Source: Nodularia sp. (in: cyanobacteria) (GTDB taxonomy: Bacteria; Cyanobacteriota; Cyanobacteriia; Cyanobacteriales; Nostocaceae). From it: a stretch of DNA of 64,000 nt. Of the stretch, positions 44,984 to 56,345 are shown piece by piece. Positions within the stretch are counted from its first letter, which is position 1; each line of letters starts with the position of its first letter. The DNA is taken from NCBI GenBank assembly GCA_007692755.1, contig REBL01000164.1, positions 1 to 64,000 of the forward strand, in the 5' to 3' direction. The notes below the pieces were generated by a model that saw nothing but the letters and a program-made list of their open reading frames with translations, was not told the origin of the DNA and made no database searches. Both the position numbers and the translations under genes were made by a program.

Positions 44984-45262
44984 AGCGCTTGTAGCACAAA
45001 TTTTTACTTGAAATTTGTTCAAGTCTAAATATTAACGAAACAATAATTTTTTTACACAAGAGAGAGTTCTAGTTTAAACTATTAATTCTTTTATTTTTCT
45101 GGATAATTAATCCTGATAAAAGTTGACAAAGTATGTTATCAGCCAGCTAATTAAATAGCCATCACAAAAGCGATATCGCTATCAAACTGCTGTATCTCTT
45201 AAGCTGGATAAACAAAGCTGCATAGGCTGTGTATCTTAAGATCAGATATATCAGTTTTGCCT

Positions 45263-46975
45263 ATGCGTTACTTTGTATTAGCCACTGACTACGATGGCAC
45301 ACTAGCTGCTAATGGTCGTGTACATAATGATACATTAACAGCATTAGAACGTCTGCGAACTTCCGGTCGCAAACTGATTTTAGTCACAGGTAGGCAGCTA
45401 GATGATTTGCGGCAAGTTTTTGAACAAATCGATTTGTTTGATTATGTGGTGGCAGAAAATGGGGCTTTGTTGTATTGTCCAGCTTCCCGTCAGGAAAAGT
45501 CATTAGGTTTACAGCCACCAGTAGAGTTTATTGAAGCATTACGCGATCGCCAAGTTAGCCCGCTCTCCGTTGGTCGTGTAATTGTCGCTACTTGGCATCC
45601 CCACGAAATGACAGTCTTACAAACTATCCGTGATTTAGGACTAGAATTACAAGTCATCTTTAATAAAGGTGCTGTCATGGTGCTACCTTCGGGTATCAAC
45701 AAAGCTACCGGACTAATGGCGGCCTTAACTGAAATGAAGTTTTCGCCCCACAACGTTGTGGGAGTGGGAGACGCAGAAAACGATCATGCTTTTCTGAATC
45801 TATGTGAATGTTCTGTAGCAGTTGCGAATGCTTTGCCGATGCTGATGGAAAGAGTAGATTTCGTCACTAATGATCAACGAGGGGATGGTGTGATTGAACT
45901 GACGGATTTGTTACTAAGTTCAGATTTATCCCCAATAGACCAGCAGTTACAACGACACAAAATTTTGTTGGGTACGAGAGAAAATGGTGCTGAAGTAAAT
46001 ATACAGCCTTATGGCTCTAGCATTTTACTAGCTGGTACTTCTGGAGGTGGTAAATCTACCTTAGCCTCAGCATTACTTGAACGTATAGCCGAACAAGGTT
46101 ATCAATTTTGCATTATTGATCCAGAGGGCGACTACGAAAACTTTGAACAGGGGGTAGTTGTAGGTGATGCAGAAGCTTCGCCCAGAATAGCAGAAGTGAT
46201 GGATTTACTCGAAAAACCCCATGAAAATGTTGTGATTAACTTGTTGGGTATCGCTTTACAAGACCGTCCAGCATTTTTTGCCGAACTACTACCAGCTTTG
46301 TTAGAATTGCGATCGCGAACCGGTCGTCCTCATTGGATAGTTATCGATGAAGCACATCATCTGATTCCTTCATCTTGGAATCTCGCCACCCTCACATTAC
46401 CTCAACAACTCAAAGGGATGATGCTGATTACAGTTCATCCAGCCCAGGTAGCACCTACAGGCTTGTCCTTGGTAGATACGATCCTCACCATAGGTAAATC
46501 TCCAGAACAGAACATCCAAGCATTTTGCGAAACTGTTGGTGATTTTCCCCCAAAACTCTCACCTCAAACCCTGAAAACCGGAGAAGCGCTGGCTTGGTTT
46601 CGTGACCAAGAAATTCCCCCATTTCGGTTTCGCATCGCCCCTGGCCATACTGAGAGACTGCGCCATGTCCGCAAATATGCAGAAGGTGAACTAGGAAAAG
46701 ATAGAAGTTTTTACTTTCGCGGGCCACAAAAAAAGTTGAATCTCCGCGCTCAAAATCTGACTTTATTTATCCAGATAGCGGAAGGTGTGGATGATGAAAC
46801 TTGGTTGTATCACCTGCACCGGGGAGATTATTCGCAGTGGTTCCGAGAAGCCATTAAGGATGAAAATTTGGCAGAGTCAGCTGAAGCAGTTGAGCAATTA
46901 ACTCATACATCAGCTAGCCAAAGTCTTAGTGCCATTAAAACAGCTATTGAAAAGCGCTATACTCTTCAAGCCTGA
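45263..46975 (+). CDS. HAD-IIB phosphatase fused to HerA-like ATPase
   Basis: A 570-aa two-domain protein. Residues 1-215 are a Cof/SPP-type HAD phosphatase: motif I DYDGTLA (D9, D11), VTGRQLDDL, a cap domain, and GVGDAENDHAFL. Residues 225-450 are a P-loop ATPase with Walker A GTSGGGKST (K264), DPEGDYE, and Walker B VIDEAHHLI (D362/E363), resembling DUF87/HerA/VirB4 ATPases. A C-terminal segment has WLYHLHRGDYSQWFREAIKD. The phosphatase substrate and the ATPase role are unknown. ATG 45263 is preferred to TTG 45257. No obvious operon partner. Confidence 0.88.
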   Translation: MRYFVLATDYDGTLAANGRVHNDTLTALERLRTSGRKLILVTGRQLDDLRQVFEQIDLFDYVVAENGALLYCPASRQEKSLGLQPPVEFIEALRDRQVSPLSVGRVIVATWHPHEMTVLQTIRDLGLELQVIFNKGAVMVLPSGINKATGLMAALTEMKFSPHNVVGVGDAENDHAFLNLCECSVAVANALPMLMERVDFVTNDQRGDGVIELTDLLLSSDLSPIDQQLQRHKILLGTRENGAEVNIQPYGSSILLAGTSGGGKSTLASALLERIAEQGYQFCIIDPEGDYENFEQGVVVGDAEASPRIAEVMDLLEKPHENVVINLLGIALQDRPAFFAELLPALLELRSRTGRPHWIVIDEAHHLIPSSWNLATLTLPQQLKGMMLITVHPAQVAPTGLSLVDTILTIGKSPEQNIQAFCETVGDFPPKLSPQTLKTGEALAWFRDQEIPPFRFRIAPGHTERLRHVRKYAEGELGKDRSFYFRGPQKKLNLRAQNLTLFIQIAEGVDDETWLYHLHRGDYSQWFREAIKDENLAESAEAVEQLTHTSASQSLSAIKTAIEKRYTLQA

Positions 46976-47013: not shown

Positions 47014-48471
47014 CTAACTGTTTGATTGAATTTTTTTGACTAAATCATTAAAAGGTTGCCAATTATCTTCTTGGGCGATAGGTTCCCAAATCGACTCAAT
47101 CAGCGGTCTTAATAATGCTGTCCGGGGATTATTCTGAGTCAGAGTTTCGGCAATTACATCCATGTATTGAGGGTCAAGAGAATTGAGAATTTTATGATAT
47201 AGTATACGCCAATTATCAAAAATCTTTGCCGTTTCTGATGTGGGTATAACCTCGGCATCTTTCATTACCATTTCTGGATCGTCTCGCCATATATTCGTAA
47301 AAGTACGCGCCATTTCATAGAAAAAGTAGTGATAACCAACTTGGCTATCTTGCAAGAATTGAATAGTTAAATTTAACAGTTCATTTAATTCAGGCAACTC
47401 TAACTGTTCAAAGCCTAACTTTTTCAACATTAAAGAACGGTATTCAGCTTGATAATACTGATTAAATTTTGCCAGTCCTGATTCCATTTCGGCTTTGTCA
47501 ATAATTGCCTTTAATGGTTCTTGAAGCATTTCTAAATTCAACTGACAAATACTTGGTTGATGGCTATAACAGTAGCGTCTATAGTAGTCGAAATATGCCG
47601 CCGTAAAATATGGGTCATAAGTCGGAATGAACGCATAAGGGCCATAATCAAAGCTTTCCCCTGTAATTGACATATTGTCAGTATTCAGAACTGCATGACA
47701 AAAGCCAGCCGCCATCCACTGCGCGGCTAGTTCTGCTACCCGTTTGACTAATTCTGCATAAAATAAAACATATTGATTTTTTTCCTCAATTAAATGAGGG
47801 TAATAATACTGAATTACGTGGTCTAAGAGTTTCTTGCTTAAATCTGGTCGTTGCAAATAATGCAAGCGTTCAAAAGTGCCAAAACGGATATGTGAACTAT
47901 TCACCCTGACCATCACAGATGAGCGAGTTGGTGAAGGTTCATCACCTCGCCACAAAGATAAACCTGTTTCAATCATGGTTAAACAGCGAGATGTGCGTAC
48001 CCCTAATTGGTGTAATGCTTCTGCTGCTAGAACTTCTCTGATTCCGCCTTTAAGTGTAAGCATCCCATCACCACCACGAGAGTAGGGTGTTTTACCAGAA
48101 CCTTTTGTGCCAAAGTCGTACAATTCGCCATCAGTAGCGCGGACTTGTCCGTAGAGAAAGCCTCTACCATCACCCAAGTTAGGATTATATGTACCAAACT
48201 GATAGCCGTGGTAACGCAATGCTAATAATGGTTTGCGTTCTTGAAATTTACCAAAAGCGTTGCTAAAGTCTTCGTCTGTAACTGCTTGGGGGTTTAGTCC
48301 CAAAAGAGGTAGCAGTGCATCATTGCGCCAGCGTAAAATATGTTGAGGAAAATCCTCTGCACTTACCTCGTCGTAGTAATCATCACCCAAAGATTCTAAT
48401 GCTGGTTCGTAGTTGAGGGTGAGAAAAGGATTGTGAGAATTTTCGTCGTTGGAAGTTTCAGCCAGATTCAT
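47014..48471 (-). CDS. selO: Protein adenylyltransferase SelO (YdiU/UPF0061)
   Basis: A 485-aa pseudokinase-fold enzyme that transfers AMP to Ser/Thr/Tyr of proteins in redox homeostasis, as shown for E. coli and human SelO. Typical blocks are [50 protein letters not shown], and the metal-binding [30 protein letters not shown] 48471 gives [10 protein letters not shown]; a TTG upstream (48480) is weaker. Bacterial rather than selenocysteine-containing form. It ends 38 bases from the convergent HAD-HerA gene. Confidence 0.93.
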
Positions 48472-48622
48472 TACGAGCAAAGGTAATTGATTCTACCTTT
48501 TATCCTACCGCCGACAGCAGACAGTGTGAAGTGAATTACCGAACAGCCCGCAGCCAAGATGAGGCTAGAGAATGTAGCATAAGTTAAATACACCTTTGCA
48601 ATCTACAAAAGAATCTCTGCCA

Positions 48623-49831
48623 ATGCATCCTCAAAAAGTTACCGGATCTATTCGCGTTATCGGTTTAATTAGCGGCACTTCTGTAGATGGTATAGATGCT
48701 GCTTTGGTAGAGGTTTCTGGTAGTGATTTGGACTTAAAAATTGAGTTGCTAGCAGGGGAAACATATCCTTACGCCGCCGAATTAAGAGAGAAAATTTTAG
48801 CCGTTGGCGCTGGCGCTGCTATTTCAATGGCAGAATTAGCAGAAATAGATGATGCGATCGCCTTTGCCTTTGCCCAAGCGGCGCAAAATATCCAAATCGG
48901 TCACCAGCCAGCAACTTTGATTGGTTCCCACGGTCAAACTGTCTACCATCGACCGCCCCAGGGGGGAAGTCAAAAGTTAAAAGTCAAAAGTCAAAAATCC
49001 AACTGCTTGGGTTATAGCTTGCAATTAGGTCGCGGTGCTGTGATTGCCCATCTGACGGGAATTACCACTGTGAGTAATTTTCGCTTGGCGGATATCAATA
49101 TTGGTGGTCATGGTGCGCCCCTTGTGCCGAGAGTAGATGCTTTTTTGCTCAGTGATTCAGTACAAGGACGTTGCATTCAAAATATTGGCGGAATTGGCAA
49201 TGTAGCTTACATTCCGCCTCGTGGTGGTGACTGGCTCTCAAAAATTCGCGGTTGGGATACCGGCCCCGGCAATAGTTTATTAGATTTGGCAGTGCAGCAT
49301 TTAACTGATGGTGCTAAGTCCTATGATCAAAACGGCGATTGGGCAGCCAGTGGTATTCCTTGCGATTCATTAGTAGAACAATGGCTCCAGCAAGATTACT
49401 TTCATCTACCCCCGCCGAAATCTACAGGTCGGGAGTTATTTGGTGTGGCTTACCTGCATCAGTGTTTAAAAGATGCCGAACCGTACCAACTTAACCCTGC
49501 TGACTTACTAGCGACACTCACAGAACTAACTGTGGCGACAATTGCTCACAGTTATCAGACCTTTTTACCCCAAATGCCGCAGCAGGTGTTATTGTGCGGT
49601 GGTGGTAGTCGTAATTTGTATTTAAAACAAAGGTTACAGTTATTGTTGCCATCAGTGCCAGTCTTGACGACAGATGAAGTAGGCTTGGATGCAGATTTTA
49701 AAGAAGCGATCGCCTTTGCTGTTTTAGCCTACTGGCGACAATTGGGGCTGAGTGGAAATTTACCTGCTGCCACTGGCGCACCTTATGAAGTACTTTTGGG
49801 AGAAATTCATTCAGAAGTAGGGATGATCTGA
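48623..49831 (+). CDS. anmK: Anhydro-N-acetylmuramic acid kinase with a repeat insertion
   Basis: A 402-aa ASKHA-fold kinase that opens and phosphorylates 1,6-anhydroMurNAc during cell-wall recycling. Blocks seen are [53 protein letters not shown] and [12 protein letters not shown]. Between HRPPQ and [10 protein letters not shown] lies a basic stretch of about 15 residues, encoded by four AAGTCAA heptamers (48967-48994) and their edge, which the family does not normally have. The frame is kept, so the protein is probably functional. ATG 48623 is the likely start. Confidence 0.93.
48967..48994. repeat. STRR array AAGT(C/T)AA, four units, inside anmK
   Basis: Three AAGTCAA units and one AAGTTAA within the coding region, translated as a Lys/Ser/Gln-rich loop after residue 114 of AnmK. 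Same family as the arrays at 1034 and 19495. Confidence 0.88.
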
Positions 49832-53903: not shown

Positions 53904-54644
53904 TTATGCTTGAGCTTTTTCTTCAAGTGAGACTATCACGATGGTGATGTTATCGTGTCCTCCCTGCTCTTTGGCGGCTTCAGTTAGGGAAAGGGTAGCT
54001 TTTTCTAATATGGCAGTGTTGCGGAGGTGATCAGCAATATTTTCATTGTTCAGTTCTTCGGTCAAACCATCACTGCATAGCAGCAGGCGATCGCCTAATT
54101 TCACATCTAGGGGTTGCACATCAACTTGATGCAAATCTTCCCTTCCCAAACACCGGGATAATATATGGCGGTAGGGGTGACTTCGAGCTTCCTCTACAGT
54201 AATATCACCTAGCTTGATTGCCCTAGCTATCCAAGTGTGATCTTCTGTGACCTGTTGTAATTGCGAGTCCCGAAACCGATATAACCTGGAATCACCAACG
54301 TGAGCGCACCAAGGCGAATCTGTGGAGCGAAAAATCACAGCGACAACTGTAGTCCCCATATCAGCGCGTTCGGGATGCTGTTTTTGATCCGCTATAATGG
54401 CTTGATTTGCTTGCCATAGGGCATTTTCTAGCAATTTGGGAGTCTGTTCAGCAGTATTCCAGTGGGACACCAAAAACGTTTGAATTTCCTGGGTGGCGAT
54501 GCGACTGGCTTGTTCACCCCCAGCATGACCACCCATACCATCAGCAACAATAAAAAATCGCCCATCAGGATCGATGTAGTAAGCATCCTGGTTACTAGAG
54601 CGAATAAGTCCCGGATCGCTGGAACCGGTGAAGTTTAGTTTCAT
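53904..54644 (-). CDS. PP2C-family protein phosphatase (PphA-like)
   Basis: A 246-aa Mn/Mg-dependent Ser/Thr phosphatase of the minimal bacterial type. Metal-binding blocks are SNQDAYYIDPDGRFFIVADGMGGHAGG, GTTVVAVIF, AHVGDSRLYRF, LLLCSDGLTEEL and GGHDNITIVIV. It starts 15 bases after the ABC1-kinase stop, so the two are probably co-transcribed. With two Hanks kinases within 6 kb it may reverse their phosphorylation or act on PII; which substrate cannot be told. Confidence 0.93.
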   Translation of the reverse strand: MKLNFTGSSDPGLIRSSNQDAYYIDPDGRFFIVADGMGGHAGGEQASRIATQEIQTFLVSHWNTAEQTPKLLENALWQANQAIIADQKQHPERADMGTTVVAVIFRSTDSPWCAHVGDSRLYRFRDSQLQQVTEDHTWIARAIKLGDITVEEARSHPYRHILSRCLGREDLHQVDVQPLDVKLGDRLLLCSDGLTEELNNENIADHLRNTAILEKATLSLTEAAKEQGGHDNITIVIVSLEEKAQA

Positions 54645-54659
54645 AATTTTTCAGCACAA

Positions 54660-56345
54660 TTAATATGTCCGGTCATAACGGTCAAGGCGTGATAGCAAGC
54701 GAATCAGGATGACTGAAATTGCTGCGGCAATTAAACCAGCTAGCACGGCCAGCCATATATAACGATTAACCAATAAAATTGTAGCTGAAAGAGTAAATCC
54801 ACTGATTATTAAAGCGTAAGTTGTGCCTAGTTGGATATTGCTCTGCCTGCGTAGTAGGCGCTCCGTTTCTATTGAACGGACACGCACACGCATATCACCG
54901 CGTTCTAATTTTTCTAGTGTATCCTCTAATCTCCGGGGCAGCCCGAATGCCGTGGTACTAACTTGAACTGCTTGGCGACTTAACTCATTGATAAAGCTAT
55001 TATTATCAGAACCATTCATATTTGTTATTAGTTGCATTGCATATGGTTGGGCAACTTCCATAAAGTTAAATTCTGGATCTAAGCCTTTACCTACCCCTTC
55101 TAGAGTAGAAAAAGCTCGCATCACAAAAGTGAAGGTTGCCGGAAATCTAAATGGCTGATTATAAGCTAATTCATACAAATCGTCACTGATTGCGGCCACA
55201 GACTGATTTTCAAAGGGCTGATCCATGAAATTGTCTAGCATATACTGGACAGAACGCCGCACAGGCCCCATATCATCTGTAGGTGCGATCGCCCCTAAAT
55301 CGATCAGAGATTGGACAACGCGATCGCCATCTTTTTGAGCGATCCCAAACAGCGTTTGCATCAGTCCTTCACGCACATTAGACTGAATCTGCCCCATCAT
55401 GCCGAAGTCGTAGAAAATTAAATCACCATTGGGACTAACAGCAATATTACCTGGGTGAGGGTCGGCATGGAAAAAGCCGTTATTTAGTAACTGCAACAAA
55501 TAAGCTTGAGCGCCTTGACGTGCTAACACCTTACGATCTAAACCCGCGGCTTCTAAAGCTTCATATTGGCTAATTTTAATTCCGGGGAGATATTCTAAAG
55601 TTAATATTTTGGGTGAAGCATAACGCCAATAAACTCTAGGGACTTTTACCCATTCATAGCCCCGAAAATTCCGACGAAAAGTATCAGCATTCCGACCTTC
55701 ATTGAGATAATCAATTTCTTCCCAAAGAATGCGGCAACACTCGTCGTAAATCCCTAGCCAATCTCTCCCCCGACCCCATTTTGGATGGTTTTGAAAGTAG
55801 CGGGTGATACCCTTGAGAATCTGTAAATCGATTTCAAAGAGCTGCTTTAGTCCAGGGCGCTGTACTTTCACCACAACTGATTCCCCGGTGTGCAGTACAG
55901 CTTTGTGTACTTGCCCTAAACTAGCAGCCGCCAGGGGAATAGGTTCAAAATTATGGAATAACTCCGGAATTTTCTTACCTAGTTCCTCCTCAATACTGGC
56001 TTCTACTTGCTCATAGCTAAAAGCAGGTACTTTGTCCTGTAACTTTGCCAATTCTTCGACATATTCACCGGGAAATATATCAGCACGGGTAGAAAATAAC
56101 TGCCCGACTTTAATAAAAGTTGGCCCTAAGTCCAACAGTGTATTACGAATCCACACCGCTTGGGCTTTGCGCCTAGCAACTTGCTTGGCTTCAGTCACAC
56201 CGCCAGCATAACTCCAAGATTTGTTGTAGCGCCAAAGCTTGAACATTAAGGTCAAGACAAAAGACCAAATATCCACAAAGCGCCGTCTGCTAGAGTAGTT
56301 TTCCCGATTCCAACGGTATGCCTGATCTGAATAACCTGTTTCCAT
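54660..56345 (-). CDS. ABC1/UbiB-family atypical kinase
   Basis: A 561-aa protein of the ABC1K family found in cyanobacteria and plastids, connected to prenylquinone metabolism and photoprotection. Signature blocks are LGPTFIKVGQLFSTRADIFPGEYVEELAKLQD (KxGQ motif), PLAAASLGQVHKAVL (Ala-rich loop), VVKVQRPG, NGFFHADPHPGNI and LIFYDFGMMGQI. Two C-terminal hydrophobic helices (about 505-550) anchor it to the membrane. It is upstream of the PP2C gene with a 15-base gap; the small DUF6825-like gene precedes it. Confidence 0.93.
   Translation of the reverse strand: METGYSDQAYRWNRENYSSRRRFVDIWSFVLTLMFKLWRYNKSWSYAGGVTEAKQVARRKAQAVWIRNTLLDLGPTFIKVGQLFSTRADIFPGEYVEELAKLQDKVPAFSYEQVEASIEEELGKKIPELFHNFEPIPLAAASLGQVHKAVLHTGESVVVKVQRPGLKQLFEIDLQILKGITRYFQNHPKWGRGRDWLGIYDECCRILWEEIDYLNEGRNADTFRRNFRGYEWVKVPRVYWRYASPKILTLEYLPGIKISQYEALEAAGLDRKVLARQGAQAYLLQLLNNGFFHADPHPGNIAVSPNGDLIFYDFGMMGQIQSNVREGLMQTLFGIAQKDGDRVVQSLIDLGAIAPTDDMGPVRRSVQYMLDNFMDQPFENQSVAAISDDLYELAYNQPFRFPATFTFVMRAFSTLEGVGKGLDPEFNFMEVAQPYAMQLITNMNGSDNNSFINELSRQAVQVSTTAFGLPRRLEDTLEKLERGDMRVRVRSIETERLLRRQSNIQLGTTYALIISGFTLSATILLVNRYIWLAVLAGLIAAAISVILIRLLSRLDRYDRTY

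Follow-up and report, generated by a model that had tools for sequence, protein, structure and literature searches.

A three-domain fusion of a predicted HAD-IIB phosphatase, a HerA-like P-loop ATPase and an OrfY/DUF5752-like domain: a putative nucleotide-controlled small-molecule phosphatase

Introduction

The window analyzed here, a stretch of 64,000 nucleotides from Nodularia sp., contains a gene in which a predicted phosphatase of the HAD type is continuous with a P-loop ATPase of the HerA fold. This raises the question of whether such an ATPase core still serves DNA work when it is joined to a phosphatase, whether it controls the phosphatase, or whether the parts of the chain act independently of each other. 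A preliminary description of the locus, made from the sequence, had proposed that an intact phosphatase is joined to an intact ATPase in one protein and that the function of this fusion is not described. The latter statement agrees with our literature searches, which among the matches listed returned no paper on the fusion and no published function for it; the FtsK-HerA superfamily survey by Iyer and colleagues may mention it.

Results

The fusion is encoded by a single open reading frame and comprises three domains

The gene is a single unbroken open reading frame on the forward strand (45257–46975), which encodes 572 amino acids when counted from the TTG at 45257, the codon from which all residues of the fusion protein are numbered here. 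The start at 45263 given in the preliminary description falls on the same residue as the start of the annotated plasmid relatives, which corresponds to the ATG at this position. The phosphatase and the ATPase indeed lie in one reading frame and each scores above the cut-off of a family model, and the four motifs quoted for them (DYDGTLA, GDAENDH, GTSGGGKST and VIDEAHH) are all present. The description as a two-domain protein, however, overlooked a C-terminal domain of the OrfY/DUF5752 type (Table 1). The predicted structure of the fusion, built on 84 sequences, has a mean pLDDT of 89.8 and a pTM of 0.78. As full-length relatives with 42–85% identity are found in many phyla, the gene is not an assembly artefact and the phosphatase-ATPase fusion is confirmed as real. 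Annotated copies carry the names HAD-IIB family hydrolase, HAD hydrolase family protein or HAD family hydrolase.

Table 1. Coordinates of the fusion gene and its domains and motifs within the window
Feature	Position	Strand	Remarks
Three-domain fusion CDS	45263–46975	+	570 aa from first ATG
HAD-IIB phosphatase domain (predicted)	45263–45922	+	residues 3–222; TIGR01484 and structure match
HAD motif I, D11-x-D13	45287–45295	+	D in 91/91 at both sites
HAD motif IV, GDAEND	45767–45784	+	residues 171–176; D172, N175 and D176 in 91/91
HerA-like RecA-fold P-loop ATPase core	45929–46690	+	about residues 225–478; PF01935 and fold match
Walker A, GTSGGGKST	46034–46060	+	residues 260–268; G260, G265 and K266 in 91/91
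Walker B and catalytic glutamate, VIDEAHH	46340–46360	+	residues 362–368; E365 and H367 in 91/91, D364 in 90/91
Equivalent of the HerA arginine-finger/sensor-1 Q segment	46361–46441	+	residues 369–395; no conserved Arg
C-terminal OrfY/DUF5752-like helical domain	46694–46972	+	residues 480–572; PF19027, fold and profile match

The N-terminal domain is a predicted small-metabolite phosphatase

Residues 8–189 match the HAD-IIB model TIGR01484 with 83.7 bits against a cut-off of 41.8, and the HAD part reaches 98.5 bits with PF08282 against a cut-off of 20.9; TIGR01484 is also matched at 1e-5 by 84/84 relatives. Narrower models are not reached at their curated thresholds, with 92.4 bits for the Cof subfamily (TIGR00099, cut-off 137) and 88.4 bits for the archaeal phosphoglycolate phosphatases (TIGR01487, cut-off 122.75). 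The earlier label of a Cof-type phosphatase is hence approximate, in that the HAD-IIB class holds and the Cof subfamily does not. Sugar-phosphatase and phosphoglycolate-phosphatase models are matched at 1e-5 by all 84 members, with the window protein scoring under their cut-offs. The catalytic residues D11, D13, K149, D172, N175 and D176 are invariant in 91 aligned proteins, an alignment that holds five copies, the window's own included, from the 11 cyanobacterial genomes with the fusion, and position 44 is occupied by threonine in 87 of them and by serine in four. D11 and D13 of motif I presumably act as nucleophile and acid/base.

The best fold match for model residues 4–226 is 1wr8 (Z 27.2, rmsd 2.5, 221 aligned residues), which bears the PDB name phosphoglycolate phosphatase. 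This protein, PH1421, has the HAD fold and the catalytic residues in common with the fusion at 27% identity over 221 residues, whereas the window HAD domain lies below the TIGR01487 cut-off and is fused to two further domains. In C2-capped HAD enzymes the active site is shielded from polymers, which suits small molecules, and we take the HAD-IIB class of the fusion phosphatase to be of this capped kind. At the level of the class, the prediction that the HAD part is a small-metabolite phosphatase is near certain.

All three domains are retained across nine phyla

At least 338 relatives were found in genome_contigs, and the best 80 of these, a set biased towards full-length copies, all span residues 5–568 or more. 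The architecture that the preliminary description proposed to search for, phosphatase plus ATPase, is thus found together with the third domain in the best 80 of at least 338 relatives and in nine phyla. Assigned by record titles and the taxonomy shown with the tree, they belong to the Cyanobacteriota with Melainabacteria (21), Planctomycetota (15), Pseudomonadota (12), Chloroflexota (9), Acidobacteriota (8), Nitrospirota (7), Myxococcota (4), Actinomycetota (2) and Fibrobacterota (1), with one left without phylum. Many of the 80 are metagenome-assembled genomes, and isolates in several phyla carry the gene as well (Nitrosomonas, Paludisphaera, Lacipirellula, Thermosporothrix, Planobispora, Mesorhizobium and Calothrix). 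Matches are present in 14 plasmid records, with a coverage of at least 80% in 11 of them. A phage origin was considered and rejected: none of 50,697 phage records has a match covering 80%, and they yield two weak HAD-only matches.

Among 145 cyanobacterial genomes the fusion occurs in 11, the window's own included, and a stand-alone HAD relative in 16. None of the seven other genomes of the window's own taxonomic family in this sample has the fusion, so that its distribution is patchy. The stand-alone relatives are 46–67% identical and form one open frame in 15 of the 16 genomes; a Nostoc plasmid carries a further one with 76% identity. The tree of the HAD domain comprises 107 rows (91 fusions and 16 stand-alone proteins), is midpoint-rooted without an outgroup and has a bootstrap that had not settled; the fusions form one group in it with a support of 99/96. 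Nested within this group, at two positions, are three stand-alone rows (L038; L013 with L014), and the remaining 13 fall outside. Not included are L017, a HAD-only row that is broken, and L096, a fusion containing unknown residues. The simplest reading of this topology would be a single fusion onto a stand-alone phosphatase, followed by two events in which the added part was lost. The stand-alone relatives imply that the phosphatase can work alone, and from the tree the rest of the protein looks like an add-on. At L207:8596-8814 (G037:C41:160595-160813), a piece of the C-terminal domain alone, with an internal stop, was observed, which is probably the relic of a lost fusion gene.

This distribution bears on the possibility that the domains are functionally independent and were joined only for co-expression or stability. 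The existence of stand-alone HAD relatives, and the two cyanobacterial lineages from which the ATPase and the C-terminal part have apparently disappeared, would agree with such an arrangement. However, a separate intact C-terminal part occurs in 0/145 cyanobacterial genomes, which contain the 11 fusions and two fragments, one broken (G037) and one a short second piece (G117); 15 carrier genomes give one strong match each, always of fusion length; and all parts are retained in the best 80 relatives, which span nine phyla. The presence of invariant residues throughout the chain argues that all three domains are under selection. We regard functional independence of the domains as unlikely; the fusion and its conservation suggest that the domains may be coupled.

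The fusion gene lacks a recurrent partner

In the window, the fusion is preceded on the other strand by what is presumably a large hybrid histidine kinase gene and followed by selO (47014–48480, opposite strand, convergent), which encodes a protein adenylyltransferase, and anmK (48596–49831). An open reading frame of 485 aa with the size and orientation of SelO lies at the same place in Anabaenopsis (L041). Further along the window (53904–56345), a PP2C phosphatase gene adjoins an ABC1-type atypical kinase gene on the same strand at a distance of 15 bases.

The neighbors, which the preliminary description had likewise marked for comparison, did not reveal a recurrent partner gene or conserved operon. 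Any Pfam family is common to at most 5/134 adjacent genes and, further out, to at most 7/140 genes (response regulators), as judged from simple gene calls that missed some neighbors. These counts cover 134 of 164 immediate and 140 of 185 more distant neighbors; genes were dropped when they were shorter than 90 or longer than 700 aa, lay too far away or out of frame, or contained unknown residues, and a random draw removed 45 of the 185. Immediate neighbors on the same strand within 150 bp amount to 34/164. The lack of a conserved partner together with the low number of same-strand neighbors fits a function exerted by one gene. Genes of the stress type (Dps, hemerythrin, BON, PRC-barrel) are found near several copies, with ferritin-like proteins at 4/134 and PRC at 3/134 of the adjacent genes. 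A defence island was rejected as the genomic context, since no PADLOC family occurs in more than 2/134 adjacent genes at 1e-20. Beside a stand-alone HAD gene in G073 (L212:8600-13600), frames are filled with the recurring peptides APKPLNPLQGLK and FNPCKGFNGFGA, which is suggestive of a translated CRISPR array.

The ATPase core has the HerA fold without the marks of the DNA pump

The ATPase part matches PF01935 over residues 255–334 with 34.1 bits against a cut-off of 23.2. Model residues 232–468 superimpose on HerA 9x1m with a Z-score of 20.8 (rmsd 2.8, 224 aligned residues), and further HerA-fold matches are 8xau (Z 20.1), 4d2i (19.9) and the SIR2/HerA protein 8wof (19.2), in a list of fold matches that consists mostly of HAD chains and hardly compares the ATPase part with non-HerA families. 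The RecA-like core with Walker A and Walker B is common to all of them (Z about 19–21 over 220–231 residues), and the Walker residues G260, G265, K266 and E365 are invariant in the 91 proteins, with aspartate at D364 in 90. A loss of catalytic residues in most homologues, which the preliminary description had named as evidence against its reading, is thus not seen in either enzymatic domain; apart from D364 and the T/S exchange at position 44, they are kept in 91/91.

HerA differs from the fusion by an N-terminal HAS barrel, a large insertion before Walker B, an arginine finger before strand 4 and a sensor-1 glutamine, all of which the fusion lacks; the HAD domain sits in the place of the HAS barrel. 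According to a study of these ATPases (PMC10853773), sensor-1 of HerA/FtsK proteins is a glutamine at the end of core strand 4 and the arginine finger lies just upstream. At the sensor-1 position the 91 fusion proteins have histidine in 81 cases and glutamine in none. For the arginine finger, no alignment column between residues 359 and 413 exceeds 30% Arg/Lys and none up to 457 exceeds 60%. By comparison, the motif GRK...TQ.P is present in 25/25 cyanobacterial HerA proteins. When these 25 are aligned to the fusion profile with hhalign (probability 90.9), EGRKFG...LITQRP falls on LKG...LITVHP, such that the GRK of HerA meets a gap and unlike residues and the fusion reads TVHP where HerA has ITQRP. 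R337 (91/91), R469 (90/91) and H367 (91/91) are conserved, and R337 or R469 may serve as a substitute arginine finger, in which case ring formation would be possible. Nevertheless, the missing HAS barrel, arginine finger and sensor-1 glutamine make an ordinary hexameric DNA pump unlikely. Of the earlier assignment as a HerA-type ATPase, the fold is therefore retained, while a hexameric DNA ATPase is less to be expected.

The window genome encodes a separate HerA-like ATPase on contig C12 that keeps the sensor-1 glutamine (DQRP). Its single NurA match lies on contig C229, another contig than that of the fusion, in line with the earlier statement that no NurA-type gene is nearby. In Mesorhizobium temperatum (L151), a second HerA-like ATPase, the nearest relative of the ATPase part within that genome, keeps the pump marks DPEGDF, GRKRG and ATQ.

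Alternative functions of the ATPase core

If the core had remained a DNA translocase, it might deliver the HAD domain as an effector to DNA in repair or defence, in the manner of HerA/FtsK capture systems. Besides the fold, this is favored by the PADLOC model mad8 (MADS_8), which is the best defence-library match of the ATPase part in 84/84 members, and by the HerA model, matched in 63/84 members at 0.001; some Nitrospira loci moreover carry what we take to be Ku-like and LigD-like genes near the fusion. The likeness to mad8, however, is best over about the first 80 ATPase residues in the window protein, and the MADS gene set was not recognized among the adjacent genes. The loss of the HAS barrel, arginine finger and sensor-1 glutamine speaks against translocation, as do the scarcity of defence families among adjacent genes, the absence of covering matches from phage records and a capped HAD domain that suits small molecules. 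A nuclease partner is likewise missing beside the fusion, including NurA, so that the HerA-NurA pairing is not found there. We consider delivery to DNA quite improbable.

Alternatively, the P-loop domain could phosphorylate the same small molecule that the HAD domain dephosphorylates. In 6-phosphofructo-2-kinase/fructose-2,6-bisphosphatase, such opposed activities act on the same small molecule. The preservation of both active sites in 91 proteins, the lost ring marks of HerA and the invariant R337 and H367 are compatible with a kinase, and weak matches to APS kinase were obtained. These matches are nonetheless limited to the first 40–100 residues from the P-loop, the fold match of the ATPase part is to HerA with no kinase among the matches listed, and no acceptor site is known, which makes a bifunctional antagonist very unlikely in our view. 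An end-repair enzyme like polynucleotide kinase/phosphatase, which the joining of HAD and P-loop domains in one chain, as in Pnkp, resembles and with which the occasional neighbors that are presumably Ku- or LigD-like would agree, is highly improbable given the capped class IIB of the HAD domain, the HerA-like P-loop domain and the lack of a recurrent repair neighbor.

The C-terminal domain resembles OrfY and offers a hint at carbohydrate metabolism

In isolation, the C-terminal domain reaches 23.4 bits with PF19027 against a cut-off of 23 (15.9 bits for the whole protein), and 12/13 members match at E ≤ 1. Its fold is matched by OrfY of Thermoproteus tenax (4cso) with a Z-score of 9.9 (rmsd 2.2, 87/93 aligned; next row 4.9). 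Helical bundles can reach Z-scores of up to about 13 by chance, and the Foldseek E-value is 0.32. The sequence profile of the domain also finds 4cso with an E-value of 0.001, and a DUF5752 protein does so at 8.6e-18. In OrfY, the DUF5752 protein finds two matching stretches, whereas the fusion has one copy joined to enzyme domains. The designed repeat protein 7rdr, which outranks OrfY by whole-sequence E-value, was rejected as a chance match composed of eight stretches, each with an i-Evalue above 1000. F485, F487, N500, W516, H519 and W528 of the C-terminal domain are invariant in the 91 proteins.

OrfY is, as we presume, part of the T. tenax trehalose operon. A term search of the paper on this operon (PMC3634074) does not find the word, and literature searches for a function of OrfY turned up nothing. 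In one cyanobacterium (G057, L202:6431-11262), treY and a treT-like gene flank a stand-alone DUF5752/OrfY gene, which overlaps the treT-like gene by a few bases; this gene order links the third domain, and not the fusion itself, to trehalose.

Around the fusion, GH13 genes (treZ, glgB, glgX and one unnamed GH13) were found within 8 kb in 7/87 loci, a minimum obtained with a biased HMM probe, as six of the seven genes recovered had served to construct it. With NCBIfam models, run on six of them, TreZ at L117, GlgX at L110 and two GlgB exceed the cut-offs, TreZ at L119 is just under its cut-off and the gene at L113 exceeds none. In 4/30 carrier genomes (G145, G147, G156 and G173), PF00128 (1e-10) is matched no further than 8 kb from the fusion, compared with a chance expectation of at most 0.53 (nominal Poisson p 0.002). 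This excess stems from three lineages and concerns a family picked after viewing the loci; the GlgB genes near L099 and L102 have no PF00128 match at 1e-10. Since most loci have no such neighbor, the alpha-glucan genes are only a hint. The Nitrospira loci L117, L119 and L092 share a neighborhood with a treZ-type gene near the fusion and presumably also amylo-1,6-glucosidase-like and Ku-like genes.

On two Aminobacter plasmids, a trehalose-6-phosphate synthase gene lies three genes from the fusion, and GT4 and amylo-1,6-glucosidase genes are also found there. Together with the OrfY-like C-terminal domain, this proximity once made a trehalose-6-phosphate phosphatase attractive. As a general substrate, trehalose-6-phosphate nevertheless appears unlikely from gene content, since 22/37 carriers, the window's own genome included, give no Glyco_transf_20 match at 1e-20, with some of the 37 genomes being incomplete. 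A separate trehalose phosphatase is present in 13/37 carriers.

Discussion

Our tentative answer to the question raised by this locus, to which we give somewhat less than an even chance, is that the fusion is a putative self-contained, nucleotide-controlled small-molecule phosphatase of carbohydrate or stress metabolism. The protein would act as a cytosolic enzyme on its own. As the class of the HAD-IIB domain suggests, the metabolite that it would hydrolyze is small and phosphorylated, probably the phosphate of a sugar or of a short acid. The P-loop domain would bind ATP and perhaps hydrolyze it slowly, and its nucleotide state might switch the phosphatase on or off. Such control of the phosphatase by the P-loop domain is suggested by the co-conservation of the parts, the loss of the pump marks and the lack of other partners. 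The gating or multimerization of the phosphatase by the ATPase that the preliminary description put forward is likewise a putative role. The OrfY/DUF5752 domain, in turn, may serve as the sensor of a ligand or partner belonging to carbohydrate or trehalose metabolism, or may hold the assembly together.

A bolder form of this proposal, which we rate as doubtful, is that the core of a DNA pump lost the marks by which it forms rings and drives DNA and was reused as an ATP-sensing or phosphorylating controller, with the OrfY domain as metabolite sensor, in a one-gene switch that would have arisen once and now be present in at least nine phyla.

If nucleotide control of the phosphatase holds true, a HerA/FtsK-type core has moved from DNA work into metabolism, and the fusion family would provide a compact and testable case in which an ATPase regulates a phosphatase that lies in the same polypeptide. 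A first functional clue to the DUF5752/OrfY domain would also be gained, and the annotated copies could be named more sharply than as 'HAD-IIB family hydrolase'.
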